Source: an uncultured Alphaproteobacteria bacterium (GTDB lineage Bacteria > Pseudomonadota > Alphaproteobacteria > UBA6615). From it: 64,000 nucleotides of DNA. Under the pieces are notes generated by a model. The model was not told where the DNA came from. It saw nothing but the letters and a program-made list of their open reading frames with translations, and made no database searches. Location: positions 62,001-126,000 of the forward strand of contig CALSNJ010000002.1 of assembly GCA_943787745.1 (NCBI GenBank). The letters run 5' to 3'. A program made the translations under genes and the position numbers. This document shows positions 46,753-57,568 of the stretch, one piece after another. Position 1 is the first letter of the stretch; each line of letters begins with the position of its first letter.

Positions 46753-46844
46753 GGAGGGGTGGCCGAGTGGCTGAAGGCGACGGTTTGCTAAATCGTTATA
46801 CGGGTAACCCCGTATCGAGGGTTCGAATCCCTCTCCCTCCGCCA
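46753..46844 (+). tRNA. tRNA-Ser(GCT)
   Basis: 92 nt including an encoded CCA. The acceptor GGAGGGG pairs with TCCCTCC, followed by discriminator G and CCA. The anticodon stem ACGGT/ATCGT closes a TTGCTAA loop with anticodon GCT. A long class II variable arm (ATACGGGTAACCCCGTAT) and the TTCGAAT T-loop confirm a serine tRNA. It reads AGC and AGT codons. Foreign DNA starts directly after it. Confidence 0.96.
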
Positions 46845-47357
46845 ACATTATCATGCATTGCTAGATTCATCGCCGCGGCCAGCTGGCCATGCAGTTCGAG
46901 CTCGAACTTCCCGCGCTTCTGTGCGGGGTAGGCAACGATGCGGTCCACCAGCTCACGCAGGGCCGCGGAAGCTTCGTCCCGTACCATCGGTTCCGCATGC
47001 AGTGCTTCTGAGAGGTTCGCGATCTTCTCCTTGTAGAGCTGGGGTGCATTCGGGTGCCACTCGATCTTTTTGGGTTCCTCGTCATTGAACACCGCAAGGT
47101 CCGAGAGTCTTCCCTCGAGCTCGCGTAGTTTGTTTCCGACTGCCCCAAGGTCACTGGCTGTGCCTTCCGCGATCGCGTCGACCAGGCGCGCGATCTTCTG
47201 TTCCAGGTTCGCCTTTTCTTTGACGTGCGCGGTATGACGGCGGCGGGCATCCTTCTGCAGTCTCTGAAGCTCCGCGTGGTACTCATCCACGAAGGTCTGA
47301 ACGAGTTCGGGTTCCATCAGCTTGCCTTGTAGGCCGCCAAGGACCCGGTCTTCGATC
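46796..47357 (-). pseudogene. C-terminal remnant of a large serine recombinase
   Basis: The frame, read towards the tRNA, gives IEDRVLGGLQGKLMEPELVQ, then the coiled-coil region (KEKANLEQKIARLVDAIAEG) and GKFELELHGQLAAAMNLA. These are the last parts of phage- and ICE-type serine recombinases. The catalytic N-terminal domain and zinc ribbon are missing: the gene is cut at 47357 by the IS3 element, and the DNA beyond the IS does not continue it. The last residues run into the tRNA 3' end antisense. It marks a decayed integrative element at the tRNA. Confidence 0.8.
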
Positions 47358-47360
47358 TGT

Positions 47361-48179
47361 CTAGCCCCCAAGTTCTGGGCCATTCCTGATTAGAGTTTCT
47401 GGAACAGGAGGGCGCATGTTGAGGGCCTGATGTGGGCGGATGTGATTGTACTGTCTGAGCCACTGGTTGATGACGATCTGGGCCTGCTTTGTTGTGGTGA
47501 ACCATTCGGCGTTGAGCACCTCGCGGCGCAGAGTTCCGTTAAATCGTTCGTTGTATCCATTCTCCCAGGGTGACCCGGGATAGATCCGGATAGGCTTGAT
47601 CCCGACCCTTGCCAACCAGTCCTGCATCGCTTCCGCGACGAACTCGGGGCCATTGTCGGAACGGATATATTCTGGAGTGCCGTGGCGCAGGAGTAGCGGG
47701 TAGAGCGCCTCAAGGACATCCTCAGCTCCCATCCTGGTGCGAACCGCGACCGCTAGAGCCTGACGGGTGTACTCGTCGAGAACTGTCAGCATCTTGTAAC
47801 TCCGACCGCTGTCGAGCTTGTCGTGTACAAAGTCGATGCTCCAGACGTGGTTCGGATGAGTCGGCCGCAGCCGTATGATCGAAGCATCCTTGTGGTAGAG
47901 CCGTCGGCGCTTCTTGTGCCGTTGCGGCAGTTGAAGGCCTTCTTCGCGCCAGATCCGCTCAACCTTCTTGTGGTTCACCTTCCAACCTTCGATGCGCAGC
48001 AGTTCGGCTATCTTGCGATAGCCGTAGCGCCCGTATTGCTTGGCCAGCCGGATCAGGGCCAATCGCAGAGCATCATCATCTCGCCGGGCCGGTCGGTATT
48101 GCAGAGAACTGCGCGCCAGTCCGATCACCCGGCATGTCCGTCTCTCTGACGTCGCGAGCTTCTGACGCGTATGGATCAC
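47361..48179 (-). CDS. IS3-family transposase OrfB
   Basis: 272 residues. An HTH_21-type N-terminal part (LALIRLAKQYGRYGYRKIAE) is followed by an integrase core: WSIDFVHDKL (first Asp), YIRSDNGPEFVAEAMQDWL (second Asp) and GSPWENGYNERFNGTLRREV (Glu). The frame is open upstream of 48179 into the 3' end of orfA (GKLDPPKAQGLTTEQVRQAV). A programmed -1 frameshift in the AAGGAAAGC region could give OrfAB. The stop lies inside the left inverted repeat. Confidence 0.92.
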   Translation of the reverse strand: MIHTRQKLATSERRTCRVIGLARSSLQYRPARRDDDALRLALIRLAKQYGRYGYRKIAELLRIEGWKVNHKKVERIWREEGLQLPQRHKKRRRLYHKDASIIRLRPTHPNHVWSIDFVHDKLDSGRSYKMLTVLDEYTRQALAVAVRTRMGAEDVLEALYPLLLRHGTPEYIRSDNGPEFVAEAMQDWLARVGIKPIRIYPGSPWENGYNERFNGTLRREVLNAEWFTTTKQAQIVINQWLRQYNHIRPHQALNMRPPVPETLIRNGPELGG

Positions 48180-50517: not shown

Positions 50518-50608
50518 GTTGTTCGGTCAATGAATCAATTATCGAACATCAGCCCACTTTCGCAGAAGTCCAGATGCCAGCTCCCGAATTTACAACTTGG
50601 TCCGCTAG

Positions 50609-50696
50609 TTACTCGGCCGCCGCTTTTTCTGACGCGATTGCTGCATTGACACGAGGCATTACCTCTTCTGCCATCAGCTGTAGCGAACGTTTCGTA
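50609..50696 (-). pseudogene. C-terminal scrap of a luciferase-like flavin oxidoreductase
   Basis: The reverse strand reads TKRSLQLMAEEVMPRVNAAI and ASEKAAAE before a stop. This is the usual C-terminus of LLM-class flavin-dependent enzymes (SLxxFAxEVMP). It ends abruptly at the left terminus of an IS6 element at 50697, so the element (or recombination through it) removed the rest. Confidence 0.65.
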
Positions 50697-51504
50697 GGCA
50701 CTGTCAGACCAAATTGGCTTGAGGCTGGCGAGGCCGTTCCGTAGCCTCCGCGGATGAAAAATCCGTTCCGTTATTTCAACTCGTCGCCCGAGATCATCCG
50801 CCTGACGGTGATGATGTATGTTCGCTACCCGCTATCGCTGCGTCAGGTCGAAGATCTGCTGCTCGAACGGGGCATCGATATCTGCCACGAGACGGTTCGG
50901 TTCTGGTGGAACCGGTTCGGTCCGATGTTCGCCGCGGAGATCAGGAAACGCCGGGTTCATCATCAATCATATTCGAACTGGCGCTGGCATCTGGATGAGG
51001 TGTTTGTGCGGATCAACGGCGAGACGCATTACCTCTGGCGCGCCGTTGATCATGAGGGCGAGGTGCTCGAGGTCTTCGCCACGAAAGCGGCGGGATCGCC
51101 GGGCTGCGCTTCGGTTTTCTGAAGCGCGCGATGAAGCGGTACGGTCGGCCGAAGTCGATTGTGACGGACCGGCTTCGGTCTTACCGGGCAGCGATGAATG
51201 TGATTGGGAATGGCGCTGACCAGGAGTGCGGCCGCTGGCTGAACAATCGGGCGGAAAACTCACATCAGCCATTCAGGCGACGGGAAGGGGCGATGTCGAA
51301 ATTCAGGGACGTAAAGACCCTACAGAAATTCGCCGCCGTTCATGCTTCGACCTTCAACCATTTCAATGCCGACCGACATCTTAAAAGCCGCTCCGACTTC
51401 AAGCAGAACCGCTCCGCCGCGCTGGCCGAGTGGCGTGAGTTGGCGGCATAAAGACGGCGTCGCCGCCGATTTTGGAGACTGGTTCGCATTAGCCTGACAC
51501 CACC
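50697..51504 (+). mobile_element. IS6-family element, copy A (defective)
   Basis: The left terminus GGCACTGTCAGACCAAATTG equals that of copy B at 54724. The right end is CTGACACCACC at 51494-51504, also as in copy B. Both copies span 808 bp and point the same way. The transposase gene of this copy has two single-base insertions. No 8-bp target duplication is recognisable. Confidence 0.82.
50754..51451 (+). pseudogene. IS6 transposase, two frameshifts
   Basis: MKNPFRYFNSSPEIIRLTVM begins as in the intact copy B protein. After VEVFATK-like EVLEVFATK the frame reads AAGSPGCASVF and stops at 51122. From 51131 the original frame resumes (MKRYGRPKSIVTDRLRSYRA to NRSAALAEWRELAA, 51451). Comparison with copy B shows one extra base near 51086 and another near 51113. 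Confidence 0.85.
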
Positions 51505-51641
51505 ATCTCGACCGCCACCTCAACAGCCGCTCCGTCTTCAAACAGAACCGCTCCGCCGCGCTGGCCGAGTGGCGTCAGTTGGCGGCATGAAGATGGTGTC
51601 GTCGGCGATTTTGGAGACTGGTTCGCATTAGACTGACAGCG
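51505..51641 (+). mobile_element. Tandem partial duplicate of an IS6 3' end
   Basis: ATCTCGACCGCCACCTCAAC resumes the transposase 3' region a second time. It runs through CTGGCCGAGTGGCGTCAGTT to the terminus CTGACAGCGCC at 51641, whose complement GGCGCTGTCAG pairs almost perfectly with the left terminus. It looks like the scar of a second IS6 insertion or of recombination between two copies. Confidence 0.7.
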
Positions 51642-51673
51642 CCAAAAGCTGGTTAGATACAGGGCACCTGTAA

Positions 51674-53116
51674 TTATCTTACGGGACTTTTGTTTACGGT
51701 AACCAGGCAGTGATGGCTGGCGTGAGCGCGGTTGCTTGGCAGATGCGCTGTTGATGTCGATCGGAAGTGGAGTGTCTCAGAATGACCTACGGACCATTCA
51801 GCGTTAACCTGATTTTTAGTTGTCCGCTTGCCTAGGCCTGACAAAACACAGGCGCTTAGAACACTATTCCTGTCGACATAATAAGCTCTGTATCCCTCAA
51901 TAAAGTTCCGGCCGGGTTTCGGCGGAATGAAGCTCGTGCCCGGATTCTGTGTTGCACTGTTTTGTATGTGCATCAGTATTTGTTTCTGGGTGCTCTGTGA
52001 TGAGGAGGTTTGACCAACAGTAAGAGGCGCTCCGACAAAATGCGGGCTATATCCGGTATATGTCTGTTGTGGGCTTGCCGTGACGATTTGGTTTGGCACT
52101 AATTGTGGCTTGGCTTGCGGGCTTGGTTGCGGCGGCGCCACTTGCGTCATCGGCTGAGGTGTCTGCTGCGCGGGTGGGTTGGGCGGCACCGGGTACCCTG
52201 TCGCAGGGTCACGTTTGCCCTGCCAGGTCGGAAACTTCTGAAAGCCTGGCTTAAGCGCCGGAGCTGTGTTGCTGAACAGTTGCGGCGGCGCCACTTGCGT
52301 CATCGGCTGAGGTGTCTGCTGCGCGGGTGGGTTGGGCGGCACCGGGTACCCTGTCGCAGGGTCACGTTTGCCCTGCCAGGTCGGAAACTTCTGAAAGCCT
52401 GGCTTAAGCGCCGGAGCTGTGTTGCTGAACAGTTGCGGCGGCGCCACTTGCGTCATCGGCTGAGGTGTCTGCTGCGCGGGTGGGTTGGGCGGCACCGGGT
52501 ACCCTGTCGCAGGGTCACGTTTGCCCTGCCAGGTCGGAAACTTCTGAAAGCCTGGCTTAAGCGCCGGAGCTGTGTTGCTGAACAGTTGCGGCGGCGCCAC
52601 TTGCGTCATCGGCTGAGGTGTCTGCTGCGCGGGTGGGTTGGGCGGCACCGGGTACCCTGTCGCAGGGTCACGTTTGCCCTGCCAGGTCGGAAACTTCTGA
52701 AAGCCTGGCTTAAGCGCCGGAGCTGTGTTGCTGAACAGTTGCGGCGGCGCCACTTGCGTCATCGGCTGAGGTGTCTGCTGCGCGGGTGGGTCGGGAGGTA
52801 CGTAGTAAGGACTATGTCCGGTATATGTTTGTTGGGGGCTCGGTTTAACCACAACAGGCGCTTGGGGTTTTGGCGTGTTGCTAGTTAATCCGCCGCCGGA
52901 TTGAGTGGCCGCAGGGGTGACGACTATGGTCTGGACGTTCGTCGTTGGTTGTGGGGATGGCACAGTAACGTGGGTACTGCCGCCTCCCTGACAATTGGGA
53001 TTATGCGCAGCTGCGTTGGCATTTTGGCAACCGGGTGGGTTTCTTTTGGCATCCACGTCTGAAGCCATAGCGACAGCAGTCAGCAGAACTATCAGTCCGG
53101 CAACTGGTTTCATCAT
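51674..53116 (-). CDS. Exported proline-rich repeat protein of unknown function
   Basis: About 480 residues. MMKPVAGLIVLLTAVAMASD is a signal peptide, followed by a short Cys-containing stretch (PPGCQNANAAAHNPNCQGG) and a Pro/Thr/Gln-rich region. The core is four identical 51-residue repeats (PPNPPAQQTPQPMTQVAPPQ, then LFSNTAPALKPGFQKFPTWQ, GKRDPATGYPV) and a partial fifth, flanked by the motif SPQQTYTGxSPxxV on both sides. The C-terminal 100 residues are not repetitive. It starts 40 nt after the TpsB-like gene on the same strand, suggesting an operon and a secreted or surface product. It has no TPS-type beta-helix domain. An in-frame start at 53143 is possible. Confidence 0.65.
   Translation of the reverse strand: MMKPVAGLIVLLTAVAMASDVDAKRNPPGCQNANAAAHNPNCQGGGSTHVTVPSPQPTTNVQTIVVTPAATQSGGGLTSNTPKPQAPVVVKPSPQQTYTGHSPYYVPPDPPAQQTPQPMTQVAPPQLFSNTAPALKPGFQKFPTWQGKRDPATGYPVPPNPPAQQTPQPMTQVAPPQLFSNTAPALKPGFQKFPTWQGKRDPATGYPVPPNPPAQQTPQPMTQVAPPQLFSNTAPALKPGFQKFPTWQGKRDPATGYPVPPNPPAQQTPQPMTQVAPPQLFSNTAPALKPGFQKFPTWQGKRDPATGYPVPPNPPAQQTPQPMTQVAPPQPSPQAKPQLVPNQIVTASPQQTYTGYSPHFVGAPLTVGQTSSSQSTQKQILMHIQNSATQNPGTSFIPPKPGRNFIEGYRAYYVDRNSVLSACVLSGLGKRTTKNQVNAEWSVGHSETLHFRSTSTAHLPSNRAHASHHCLVTVNKSPVR
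52127..52791. repeat. Four identical 153-bp direct repeats plus a 53-bp partial copy
   Basis: Units start at 52127, 52280, 52433 and 52586 with TTGCGGCGGCGCCACTTGCG, and appear identical base for base. A fifth, starting at 52739, stays identical for 53 bp, then diverges. 153 is a multiple of 3, so copy number can change without breaking the reading frame. Confidence 0.93.
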
Positions 53117-53156
53117 TGATTGCTGCCAATCCTTGCAATTCATCGGGATCTGTCGG

Positions 53157-54647
53157 CTACCAGGCATACTGGGCCTGCATGTAGAATTCTGGAGTGTGGT
53201 CGCGGTCGCTGCGTGTTCCATCATGGACGGGTAATGCAAGCCAGCTATTGATTGAAAAACCACTCTCGAATGTGGCCCTAATTCCTATGCCTGTGCTTGC
53301 AAGCTCGGTGTTGTCTGGTCGACCTACTGATAACTCGCTATTCGAATTATTAAGATATGTAACATCCAAGAAGGCGAAAGGAGCAATCCCGATCAGGTTT
53401 AGCGCATTCGCATGAATAGTTTCGGCGATTTCAAGTGTTAGGTTCGTGCCGCTGCTGCCTGCATATTCAAACGGCGCAAAACCACGCTGTTTATCCTGTC
53501 CACCAAAGCTGAATAACTCAAAGGATGGTTGGTTCTTCGATCCCAGTTGTCCAGACAACTCCAGGAGGAATTCCGCATTATCGGATACCGATGGCAGTCC
53601 ATAGATCAACCCGACTCCTGCACGTAGTGAGCCAAAATTGTTTTCTGCGCCGGAAAACTCATGGCCCCCCGAAAACGTCAAACCATAGGACACGGTATCG
53701 CCCTGATCGGTGTCCAATTTGTAAAACCAGGAGGTGCGGAGAATCGCGTTTCTTCGATCCTCGGACAGATTATCTTTGTCTACCCGATAATCCATTTCTA
53801 TGAAGCCAGTTTTTGCCTCGTTGACAGTGCGCTTGAATCGATGTCCAAAAAGCACGGCGCCGGCGGTAGATTTTGATGCAAGAGTGTTCTGGTTTCGGAA
53901 ATTAAAATCTGACGCCGAATCAAAATGTGAGGCACGGGTTTCTGCAAAACTGCCGATACTATTTACCGGTACCTGATAAGAAACTTGCCCAAAATAAGAA
54001 CGTGTATTGGTTTTAGCCTGCGCGCCCGCGAGTTCGAGTTGAAGTATGTCTCCGCCTGCGACAAGAGAATAAAGCTCTTGGTGAAGTACGACTTCCTTGC
54101 CGGACAGGTCTTCTGTCGGTGTATTGTGAAATGAGATGCTGCCTGACTGAGAAACCCTGGATCCGACTAAAACAGCTTCATAGCCGGTGCCGTTCCCAAG
54201 GCGATTGAGCTGCAGGCTTGCGGTCAATCCTGGGATGTCGTTAATCAGTCCAGTGACATGATCGATTTGTTCGATGTGAGGCGTGGGCCCGACGAGCTGG
54301 TTGAGGTAGGCTCTGGCTAAGCTGCCTGTTCTTTCGTCCAGACCTAAGACTGAAACAGCTTCGATTTGGCCAAGATCGACCCGCAAGGTTTCACCTGCAA
54401 CTGAGACTGATGCAAGCACATAGCCCTGATTCTCGAGAAAATGAACAAGGTTATTTGCTGCTTCGGATACATCCGAATAAGTGTGAAGAGAAACCCCGCC
54501 CTTGAGTTCCGGTGGCAGCCCTTCCACTTGCAATGGTTGCGCACTTGCCGCCGAATGGATGGCTAGGCCTAGAACGATCGCGCAGCTGGCCATAGCGGTA
54601 TGTATTCGGATTCGCAGGATCTTAGCGTTCGTTAAAAGCTCAATCAT
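53157..54647 (-). CDS. TpsB/ShlB-type outer-membrane transporter
   Basis: 496 residues. The signal peptide (SCAIVLGLAIHSAASA) is followed by POTRA-like sequence (VSEAANNLVHFLENQGYVLA, VDLGQIEAVSVLGLDERTGS) and a beta-barrel of about 330 residues. The Omp85/TpsB motif 6 appears as FSFGGQDKQRGFAPF (family form F-x-x-GG-x-x-x-x-RG-F/Y), and the protein ends in aromatic Trp as outer-membrane barrels do. Visibly more A+T-rich than chromosomal genes on either side. It is followed by the proline-rich repeat gene; both are bracketed by IS6 copies A and B. Two-partner secretion by this protein is inferred. Confidence 0.82.
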   Translation of the reverse strand: MIELLTNAKILRIRIHTAMASCAIVLGLAIHSAASAQPLQVEGLPPELKGGVSLHTYSDVSEAANNLVHFLENQGYVLASVSVAGETLRVDLGQIEAVSVLGLDERTGSLARAYLNQLVGPTPHIEQIDHVTGLINDIPGLTASLQLNRLGNGTGYEAVLVGSRVSQSGSISFHNTPTEDLSGKEVVLHQELYSLVAGGDILQLELAGAQAKTNTRSYFGQVSYQVPVNSIGSFAETRASHFDSASDFNFRNQNTLASKSTAGAVLFGHRFKRTVNEAKTGFIEMDYRVDKDNLSEDRRNAILRTSWFYKLDTDQGDTVSYGLTFSGGHEFSGAENNFGSLRAGVGLIYGLPSVSDNAEFLLELSGQLGSKNQPSFELFSFGGQDKQRGFAPFEYAGSSGTNLTLEIAETIHANALNLIGIAPFAFLDVTYLNNSNSELSVGRPDNTELASTGIGIRATFESGFSINSWLALPVHDGTRSDRDHTPEFYMQAQYAW

Positions 54648-54723: not shown

Positions 54724-55531
54724 GGCACTGTCAGACCAAATTGGCTTGAGGCGAGTGGGCTCGTTCCGTAGCCTCCGCGGATGAGAAATCCGTTCCGCTA
54801 TTTCAACTCGTCGCCCGAGATCATCCGCCTCACGGTGATGATGTACATCCGCTACCCGCTGTCGCTGCGCCAGGTTGAGGACATGCTGTTCGAACGTGGC
54901 ATCGATATCTGCCACGAGACGGTACGTTTCTGGTGGAACCGGTTCGGCCCGATGTTCGCTGCGGAGATCCGGAAGCGGCGGGTTCATAATCGTTCGTATT
55001 CGAATTGGCGCTGGCACCTGGATGAGGTTTTTGTTCGGATCAACGGCGAGACGCATTACCTGTGGCGCGCGGTTGATCATGAAGGCGAGGTGCTCGAGGT
55101 TTTTGCGACAAAACGGCGAAATCGCGCGGCTGCACTCGCTTTTCTGAAGCGCGCGATGAAGCGGTATGGTCGGCCGAAGATGATCGTAACGGACCGACCA
55201 AAGTCTTACCGGGCAGCGATGAATGTGATCGGGAATGCCGCCGATCAGGAATGCGGCCGCTGGCTTAACAACCGGGCGGAAAACTCACATCAACCGTTTC
55301 GACGAAGGGAAGGGGCGATGTCGAAATTCAGGGACGTCAAGACGCTACAGAAGTTCGCCGCCGTTCATGCTTCAACCTTCAACCACTTCAATCTCGACCG
55401 CCATCTTAACAGCCGCTCCGTCTTCAAGCAGAACCGCTCCGCCGCGCTGGCCGAGTGGCGTCAACTGGCGGCATGAAGTTAGCCGTCGTCCGTCGATTTC
55501 GGAGACTGGTTCGCATTAGCCTGACACCACC
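54724..55531 (+). mobile_element. IS6-family element, copy B (intact)
   Basis: 808 bp from GGCACTGTCAGACC to CTGACACCACC, direct repeat of copy A. The first 8 nt outside the left and right ends (TTTATAGC-like and GCCAATAA) do not match, so no target duplication is seen. It contains one uninterrupted transposase gene. Confidence 0.88.
54781..55476 (+). CDS. IS6-family transposase
   Basis: 231 residues, the standard IS6/IS26 length. MRNPFRYFNSSPEIIRLTVM opens with the zinc-finger/HTH-like region (LSLRQVEDMLFERGIDICHE), then the DDE core: WHLDEVFVRINGETHYLWRA, KMIVTDRPKSYRAAMNVIGN, and the Glu in NNRAENSHQPFRRREGAMSK. The reading frame is intact, so it may still move copy A and the cargo between them. 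Confidence 0.93.
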   Translation: MRNPFRYFNSSPEIIRLTVMMYIRYPLSLRQVEDMLFERGIDICHETVRFWWNRFGPMFAAEIRKRRVHNRSYSNWRWHLDEVFVRINGETHYLWRAVDHEGEVLEVFATKRRNRAAALAFLKRAMKRYGRPKMIVTDRPKSYRAAMNVIGNAADQECGRWLNNRAENSHQPFRRREGAMSKFRDVKTLQKFAAVHASTFNHFNLDRHLNSRSVFKQNRSAALAEWRQLAA

Positions 55532-55632: not shown

Positions 55633-56430
55633 CTAATTGGGCACGGCGAAGGTTAGGTTTGCCCAAAGCGTTTCCCAAACGGCATTTGTGTCTCTGTGGC
55701 GCTCATGCGGCTGTCGGAATATCACGGCATTCAACATGTACTCGGAGCCCGCCACGATGGGCAGGACAGCGATGCCATCGGCGTTGGTCTCATGAACCGA
55801 TGCTATCAGTTCGCCCGAAGCGGCCTTGGAATACATCTCGAGCTGAGAATCAGGACGTGGCGCGCCATTGAAGAAAAGCTGGACCCGAATATCAGTGGCA
55901 TCTTTCAGAAGGTAGGGGTTTTCCAGCGCGACCAGCTCGGCCTCAAGCCCTATTCGGCGGTCGGCACCTTGTGCATTCCCGACACTGACGAGCGCCTTTG
56001 AATACCGGGTATAAACTTCGGTAAATTTGCCAGAGGACAAGCCGCGCGCGAAATGCGTCTTTGCGATGTCATCCACGCCATGGTTGATGGCGAAATCTTT
56101 GAACTTCTCGAAACTGTCGTAGGAAATCGTTGTAGGTTTGGATTCGTAAACAATGATGTTTAACCCTGAACTCGGTGCCGCTTGATCAATTGCCGGTCGG
56201 TCGCCAATACGGCTCACCACCCCCACGGCCTGGTTTGCGCCAAGGATCACAAAATGTTCGAAGTCGCCGGGTAGATAGGAGAGTTGCGTTCCTTCAAAAT
56301 CTTCGCCGTTTTTGATTCCAGCAACGATATTGTCAAAGGATTGCACCTGATAATCTGCAGGTTCTATCCAAAGCTCGTGGGCGACCACAGGGGATGCCAG
56401 CATGCAAAAAAGCACAATGAGAATGCGCAT
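55633..56430 (-). CDS. DUF4198-like periplasmic protein
   Basis: 265 residues. A signal peptide (MRILIVLFCMLASPVVAHEL) ends with the characteristic AHELWIEP, as in DUF4198 proteins associated with nickel/cobalt uptake or metal-binding envelope functions. Later features are KTHFARGLSSGKFTEVYTRY and a C-terminal beta-rich domain with TNADGIAVLPI. Its ATG (56430) lies inside the divergent HupE-like gene's 5' end. Pairing with HupE suggests a metal-related transport function; that is inference. Confidence 0.75.
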   Translation of the reverse strand: MRILIVLFCMLASPVVAHELWIEPADYQVQSFDNIVAGIKNGEDFEGTQLSYLPGDFEHFVILGANQAVGVVSRIGDRPAIDQAAPSSGLNIIVYESKPTTISYDSFEKFKDFAINHGVDDIAKTHFARGLSSGKFTEVYTRYSKALVSVGNAQGADRRIGLEAELVALENPYLLKDATDIRVQLFFNGAPRPDSQLEMYSKAASGELIASVHETNADGIAVLPIVAGSEYMLNAVIFRQPHERHRDTNAVWETLWANLTFAVPN

Positions 56431-57568
56431 GAGTAAATTTCGCTCTTGGTTGGGGCCCGTCGTACAGGCACTGACAGTATGTCTCTGGCTGATCAGCACA
56501 AGTGCCAGCGCCCATGAGGTGTCGCCTTCGGTGGCAGATCTGTCACATCAAGATGGCATTGTGACAATGGACATTGAACTGGTCCTGGAAGGATTTCTGG
56601 CGAGCATTGATCTTTCTGCTGTTACAGATACCAATGAAGCCGAAGCTGCCGCAACCTACGATGTCTTCAGGGCACTCAATGGGCCGGAGCTTGAGGCTCA
56701 ATTCAGGTTGTTCTGGCCTTCGATGGCCCCACAACTTCAGTTTTCTGCGGACGGTGCTCGGTTATCTGTGGAACTCAACCATGTATCCGTGCCGGACGTC
56801 GGTAACATTGACCTGCCAAGGCTCTCAAAAATTCAGGTCACTGCGGTTTTGCCCGCTGGTGCTCAAAGTGTCGATATTGGCTGGGACCGGAAATTTGGCG
56901 CGCTGGTCCTTCGTCAAATGGATGTCGAAAATCCCTATGAGGCGTACATCGCAGCGGGGACGACCAGCGGCTCGTTTCCAATCGCGGGTGGAGGTCAGCG
57001 TGGCGGCTGGGAGACGTTTGCGGACTACATTGCCGTCGGCTTCGATCATATTGTTCCCAAGGGGCTCGACCACATCCTGTTCGTCCTGGCTCTCTTTTTC
57101 CTCTCTCCGACCCTTCGTTCTTTGCTTTGGCAGGTATCGGCTTTTACACTTGCCCACACGATCACACTTGCGGCCGGTGTGACGGGCCTTGTTTCCGTGC
57201 CCGGCGAGATCGTTGAGCCCATAATTGCGGCATCCATCGTATTTGTTGCTGTGGAAAATATCTTCACGTCGGGCTTGAGCCGATGGCGGCCGATTGTCGT
57301 GTTCGTGTTTGGATCGCTGCATGGACTTGGGTTTGCCAGCGTCCTCCAGGAGTTCGGACTTCCGGCAGATAAGCTTGTTCCAGCACTCATCGGTTTCAAT
57401 ATCGGTGTCGAGTTGGGTCAGCTTGCGGTCATCGCATGCGCATTCGCACTCGTTGGTTACTGGTTTCGGAGCAAGACCTGGTACCGCCCTGTCATTTCGA
57501 ACCCTGGCTCGCTGATCATCGCTCTGGTTGGCGCCTATTGGTTCATAGAGCGTGTTGGCATTGTTTGA
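56402..57568 (+). CDS. HupE/UreJ-family membrane protein
   Basis: 388 residues. A signal peptide (VVQALTVCLWLISTSASAHE) with the AHEV start is followed by a periplasmic beta domain. The C-terminal half has about six helices with DHIVPKGLDHILFVLALFFL, the His/Asp motif of HupE/UreJ_2 proteins, LAHTITLAAGVTGLV and FGSLHGLGFASVL. HupE/UreJ proteins take up nickel in hydrogenase and urease systems; no such enzymes are seen here. AGGGGAT precedes the ATG at 56402; ATGs at 56417, 56423 and 56429 are alternatives. The 5' end overlaps the DUF4198 gene by 29 nt. Confidence 0.85.
   Translation: MQKSTMRMRMSKFRSWLGPVVQALTVCLWLISTSASAHEVSPSVADLSHQDGIVTMDIELVLEGFLASIDLSAVTDTNEAEAAATYDVFRALNGPELEAQFRLFWPSMAPQLQFSADGARLSVELNHVSVPDVGNIDLPRLSKIQVTAVLPAGAQSVDIGWDRKFGALVLRQMDVENPYEAYIAAGTTSGSFPIAGGGQRGGWETFADYIAVGFDHIVPKGLDHILFVLALFFLSPTLRSLLWQVSAFTLAHTITLAAGVTGLVSVPGEIVEPIIAASIVFVAVENIFTSGLSRWRPIVVFVFGSLHGLGFASVLQEFGLPADKLVPALIGFNIGVELGQLAVIACAFALVGYWFRSKTWYRPVISNPGSLIIALVGAYWFIERVGIV

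Follow-up and report, generated by a model that had tools for sequence, protein, structure and literature searches.

A TpsB-type outer-membrane barrel and a small exported partner, encoded side by side in the window (the whole 64,000-nucleotide stretch analysed here), form a real, conserved and apparently undescribed protein pair of Alphaproteobacteria. The two genes are coupled and their products diverge together; the partner carries a signal peptide, and the barrel has a TpsB-type fold. The reading we favor, with a probability of roughly 0.55, is that of a putative TPS-like (type Vb-like) surface-export pair, whose partner would stay anchored by a C-terminus closed with a disulfide, in the manner of HMW1 and HxuA.

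The gene pair in the window

The pair and its parts lie on the reverse strand:

53157..54647 (-), gene for the TpsB/Omp85-type outer-membrane barrel, 496 aa (Pfam ShlB, AF2 and PDB fold matches)
53117..53156 (-), intergenic gap of 40 nt, with AAGGA upstream of ATGATG
51674..53116 (-), exported partner protein gene, 480 aa, cysteines 30, 42, 423 and 470
53048..53116 (-), partner signal peptide, read from the sequence, likely cleaved after VDA
52976..53047 (-), partner N-terminal module KRNPPGCQNANAAAHNPNCQGG with Cys-x11-Cys, a spacing common to 12 of 13 members
52126..52795 (-), partner linker, expanded in tandem repeats of 153 nt: a partial unit and four full ones identical to each other (TRF, sequence)
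51677..51934 (-), conserved C-terminal domain (CTD) whose two cysteines are 46 residues apart (alignments, genome searches)

The barrel matches the Pfam family ShlB/FhaC/HecB (E 3.9e-7, above the curated cut-off), and the partner frame opens with the ATGATG at 53116, 40 nt past the tpsB stop, and runs on the same strand to 51674. The sequence-only reading had described a TpsB-type barrel with an exported repeat protein 40 nt behind it, and in this it is confirmed by the Pfam match, the partner's reading frame and signal peptide, and the TRF result. It was also right that the hemagglutinin-type β-helix is missing: the domain search detects neither the TPS domain (PF05860) nor a β-helix in the window's partner, and found both in a control TpsA. 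The partners scanned match no Pfam or NCBIfam family. An antisense reading frame at 52103-52888 (+) was rejected as a gene, being the mirror of the repeats.

A compact TpsB-type barrel

The AF2 model of the window barrel, built from three sequences and of moderate confidence (mean pLDDT 65), begins with two POTRA-like modules, the first of which is without a helix, and continues with a barrel of 16 strands; FhaC and CdiB are among its best PDB matches in Foldseek, and the clade barrel profile matches CdiB by sequence. The lid-lock motifs of TpsB proteins, (V/I)RG(Y/F) and (F/G)xDxG (PMC4490367), are represented by R388, G389, F426 and D428, invariant in 8 of 8 aligned barrels, while the flanking letters deviate in the window barrel (QRGF, FLDVT). 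Pfam POTRA_2 is absent in this barrel and reaches E 0.012 in that of G176. As judged from both alignment and model, clade barrels have neither the H1 helix nor the linker behind it, and POTRA1 starts directly after the signal peptide; most TpsB proteins have an N-terminal H1 helix, and the linker before POTRA1 is required for the activity of FhaC (PMC5422565).

Distribution and coupling

A direct sequence search with the window partner among 190 related genomes gave one match, in G059, where a barrel adjoins the partner. Further loci came from a profile of the last 85 residues (the CTD), and a barrel profile added four more. Together they place the pair in 11 further alphaproteobacterial genomes: UBA7371, an uncultured Tara MAG of the Rhodospirillaceae (L078), Thalassospira lucentensis HF2 (L079), and eight genera of one large family (f23). 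All loci read share one layout, with the barrel gene followed by the partner on the same strand; in most, the genes overlap at stop and start or lie a few nucleotides apart, and the gap, 17 nt in the Tara MAG and 40 nt in the window, is at most 17 nt in the relatives. Co-occurrence in other genomes, on which the sequence-only reading had made its pairing depend, was checked and found: the pair recurs, and 12 of 12 barrels of the clade have a partner directly downstream. The CTD and barrel searches converge on the same loci. When 395 genomes of one family were searched with the barrel profile, eight matches had E<1e-140, all of them beside a partner; the next ones were at E 2e-34 or weaker, and the best of these adjoins a long TpsA-like gene.

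In the other direction, 12 of 13 partner loci have a barrel. The exception, Thalassospira sp. HF15, encodes an intact partner (L077 5182-6243) and no clade barrel in a genome with a completeness figure of 100%, so that the partner may act without the barrel. Members are patchy among relatives, and five congeners of the window's genome are without the pair. A sparse sampling of the phylum outside Alphaproteobacteria yielded no convincing match. On plasmids, neither the window pair nor the partner from G611 had a match, and a search with a barrel of the second type returned distant TpsBs only (22-30% identity). CTD-profile matches at E 0.001-0.1 (G105, G030, G143 and others) were treated as chance; the one in G105 lies in unrelated genes. 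At the G611 locus, an ORF directly upstream of the barrel gene (L074 6640-7782) resembles, by eye, an ISAs1-type transposase.

In a quick tree without bootstrap, eight paired barrels group in a single clade (SH-aLRT 100), apart from 20 canonical TpsBs of Alphaproteobacteria. Pairwise identities of barrels and CTDs correlate with a Mantel r of 0.95 (p 5e-5), to which the shared ancestry of the genomes may contribute, although members are patchy. A PF05860 search covered nine genomes: the control G124, the partner-only HF15 and the pair-bearing genomes other than the Tara MAG and the last four found, seven in all. It was positive only in G124, whose TpsB has as its neighbor an ordinary TpsA carrying both the TPS domain and the β-helix; it found no such domain in the seven pair-bearing genomes, nor in HF15. 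In those seven, the neighboring partner is therefore the only evident client of the barrel and, to judge by this absence, its only evident substrate in the genomes tested.

Anatomy of the partner

What is constant in the partners, which range from about 280 to 480 aa, is a signal peptide, an N-terminal two-cysteine motif and a CTD of ~85 residues with two further cysteines; in each full-length partner the signal peptide is present and the mature protein has four cysteines, two near either end (those of UBA7371 were read from two contigs). The N-terminal pair is spaced C-x11-C in 12 of 13 partners and C-x8-C in HF2; the C-terminal pair is kept in all 13, 44-46 residues apart. The CTD is the best conserved region of the partner in alignments, and its conserved cysteine pair leads us to guess that it may be closed by a disulfide. 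Its AF2 model (pLDDT 41) is too poor for use. Matches of the profile to TREX1 among PDB sequences (E 0.012) were dismissed as chance, being eukaryotic and covering half of the profile only.

The linker between the cysteine pairs is itself free of cysteines, spans some 160-350 residues and, where measured, has a proline content of 4-22%. In the window it holds an array with a period of 153 nt, or 51 residues (4.4 copies, 99% match in TRF), whose four full units are identical in DNA (0 of 153 positions differ), so that the expansion is either very recent or kept uniform by conversion. Tandem repeats with long units (>=51 nt) occur in 4 of 13 partners, and their units differ (153 nt in the window, 108 nt in UBA7371, 186 nt in G1129, 51 nt in G1141); TRF finds none in the other nine, among which G455 has a weak 12-nt array only. 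The repeat, which was the first part of the protein to draw notice, is thus its changeable part: as a defining feature of the partner it had to be given up, since most members are without it and the constant parts are the cysteine-containing ends. A P-x-T-G-x-[SG]-type motif exceeds the level of shuffled linkers in the window, in UBA7371 and in three of four f23 members tested; it falls below significance in the linker of G455 (p 0.06) and is absent from those of HF15, Tara and HF2. Just downstream of the G1141 pair, a separate 108-nt tandem repeat is present in three copies at 97% (L104 4925-5244).

A putative export route and its alternatives

In the route we propose, barrel and partner would both reach the envelope by Sec, and the unfolded partner would be taken up by the short POTRA region and pass through the barrel with its N-terminal cysteine module or its linker first. 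The CTD would close its disulfide in the periplasm and so be unable to pass the pore, which would leave the partner anchored, with linker and N-terminus at the surface; the linker would then be a stalk, free to change in length and sequence, repeat expansion included. Adhesion, shielding and binding are candidate functions. The C-terminal anchor is modeled on HMW1 and HxuA, whose disulfide-closed C-termini are held to stay in the TpsB pore (PMC5422565). The sequence-only reading had considered a repeat-rich surface or adhesive protein secreted by a new two-partner route; the pair does recur, its partner has neither TPS domain nor β-helix, and such a route is plausible; it is the repeats as defining trait that fall away.

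A more specific form of this proposal can be advanced tentatively, at somewhat less than even odds: the compact TpsB clade may recognize the short cysteine module in place of a 250-residue TPS domain, and display a disulfide-anchored, freely evolving, disordered stalk. Several points weigh against the favored route as a whole: the HF15 partner without a clade barrel, the missing linker before POTRA1 that FhaC needs (PMC5422565), the failure of Pfam to find a POTRA domain in the window barrel, and a CTD that could not be modeled usefully (pLDDT 41).

The missing H1 helix and linker could also mean that the partner is a periplasmic subunit of the barrel, either a gate or plug in place of H1 or an assembly helper, and that the barrel serves other clients. 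Its small size, the cysteines at its ends and the tight 1:1 coupling would suit such a role; however, the linkers are of very different lengths and sequences and grow by repeat expansion, an uncommon trait for a fitted subunit; no client with a TPS domain turned up in the seven pair-bearing genomes searched, and HF15 has the partner without the barrel. We consider this reading unlikely.

The export route itself allows another outcome, in which the partner is released fully into the medium and the CTD is a folded extracellular domain instead of an anchor. Many classical TpsA proteins are released (PMC5422565), and no other part of the partner is as well conserved as the CTD; however, two cysteines ~45 residues apart within the last ~60 residues resemble the anchor of HMW1 and HxuA, and full release seems improbable to us.

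Insertion sequences around the pair

Three IS6-family features surround the pair on the forward strand:

50697..51504 (+), left IS6-family copy with a frameshifted transposase, sharing 88% identity with its right counterpart
51505..51643 (+), fragment from the 3' end of another IS6 copy (sequence comparison)
54724..55531 (+), right IS6-family copy with an intact 231-aa transposase (PF13610, E 1.6e-40)

The sequence-only reading had noted two directly oriented IS6 copies around the pair, one with an intact transposase, and in this it was correct (PF13610; the left copy is frameshifted). It had further likened the arrangement to IS26-type mobile units. That the pair is such a unit, carrying a repeat adhesin with its transporter, is very improbable and largely refuted, despite the orientation of the copies and the intact transposase, an IS6-like transposase that adjoins the pair in one other genome (L073), and the five congeners without it: the two IS6/IS240-type copies agree at just 88% of 803 aligned bases and the left one is broken; no 8-bp duplication is shared in any combination of flanks beyond the letters of the IS ends; the surroundings contain further fragments of related IS6 copies, which occur at several sites of the genome and mostly on the same contig; the stretches read at the UBA7371, Tara and Thalassospira loci have no IS6 beside the pair; and neither the window pair nor the G611 partner has plasmid matches. 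Because the G+C content of the barrel gene is low (50%, against 58% for the window) and five congeners are without the pair, a gain from outside is suggested, but not as a young IS26-type unit.

To the left of the pair, positions 46753-48179 hold a tRNA-Ser, a recombinase-like C-terminal fragment overlapping the tRNA end and, beyond it, an IS3-type transposase ORF; with the IS6 remnants, these features make 46.7-58 kb an island-like stretch. At 50573-50696 (-), what by eye resembles the C-terminal end of a luciferase-like monooxygenase is cut off by the left IS6 copy, and to the right of the other copy, at 55633-57568, a DUF4198 protein and a HupE/UreJ-like membrane protein are encoded in divergent, overlapping orientation.

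Comparison with known systems

The literature searched, outside of which lie most subscription journals, yielded no description of the pair. A 2017 review ascribes to every TpsA an N-terminal TPS domain of ~250 residues, without which secretion fails (PMC5422565). Among 12,869 Omp85/TpsB proteins surveyed in another study, no TpsB subfamilies were recognized besides the FhaC and Hmw1B types (PMC4104836). If the proposed export is real, a TpsB clade whose sole evident partner is free of a TPS domain would show the minimal needs of the barrel, and such small, simple partners would be useful in experiments on the way TpsB pores select and retain their cargo.

Among known systems, IS26/IS6 translocatable units share with the window the directly oriented IS6 copies around a passenger; the window differs in its diverged copies, in the missing target-site duplication and in the occurrence of the pair elsewhere without IS6. 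The pair's closest likeness is to two-partner secretion (type Vb: FhaC/FhaB, ShlB/ShlA, CdiB/CdiA), with which it has in common the 16-stranded Omp85/TpsB barrel, the lid-lock Arg and Asp, and a predicted Sec-exported partner encoded beside the barrel. It differs in that window-type partners have about 280-480 aa and neither TPS domain nor β-helix, and in that the clade barrels are without H1 and linker; in the branch of the window, POTRA1 also appears to be reduced. Since a search for the TPS domain found none, the pair is best placed near TPS and not as a TPS system. HMW1B/HMW1 and HxuB/HxuA resemble it in the two cysteines near the partner's C-terminus, a candidate disulfide anchor; its partner differs from theirs by the missing TPS domain. 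The patatin Omp85 fusions of type Vd (PlpD) offer a further parallel, an Omp85-superfamily barrel that exports cargo other than a β-helix (export being putative for the pair); there, however, barrel and cargo are one protein, whereas here they are encoded by two genes and the barrel is of the TpsB type.
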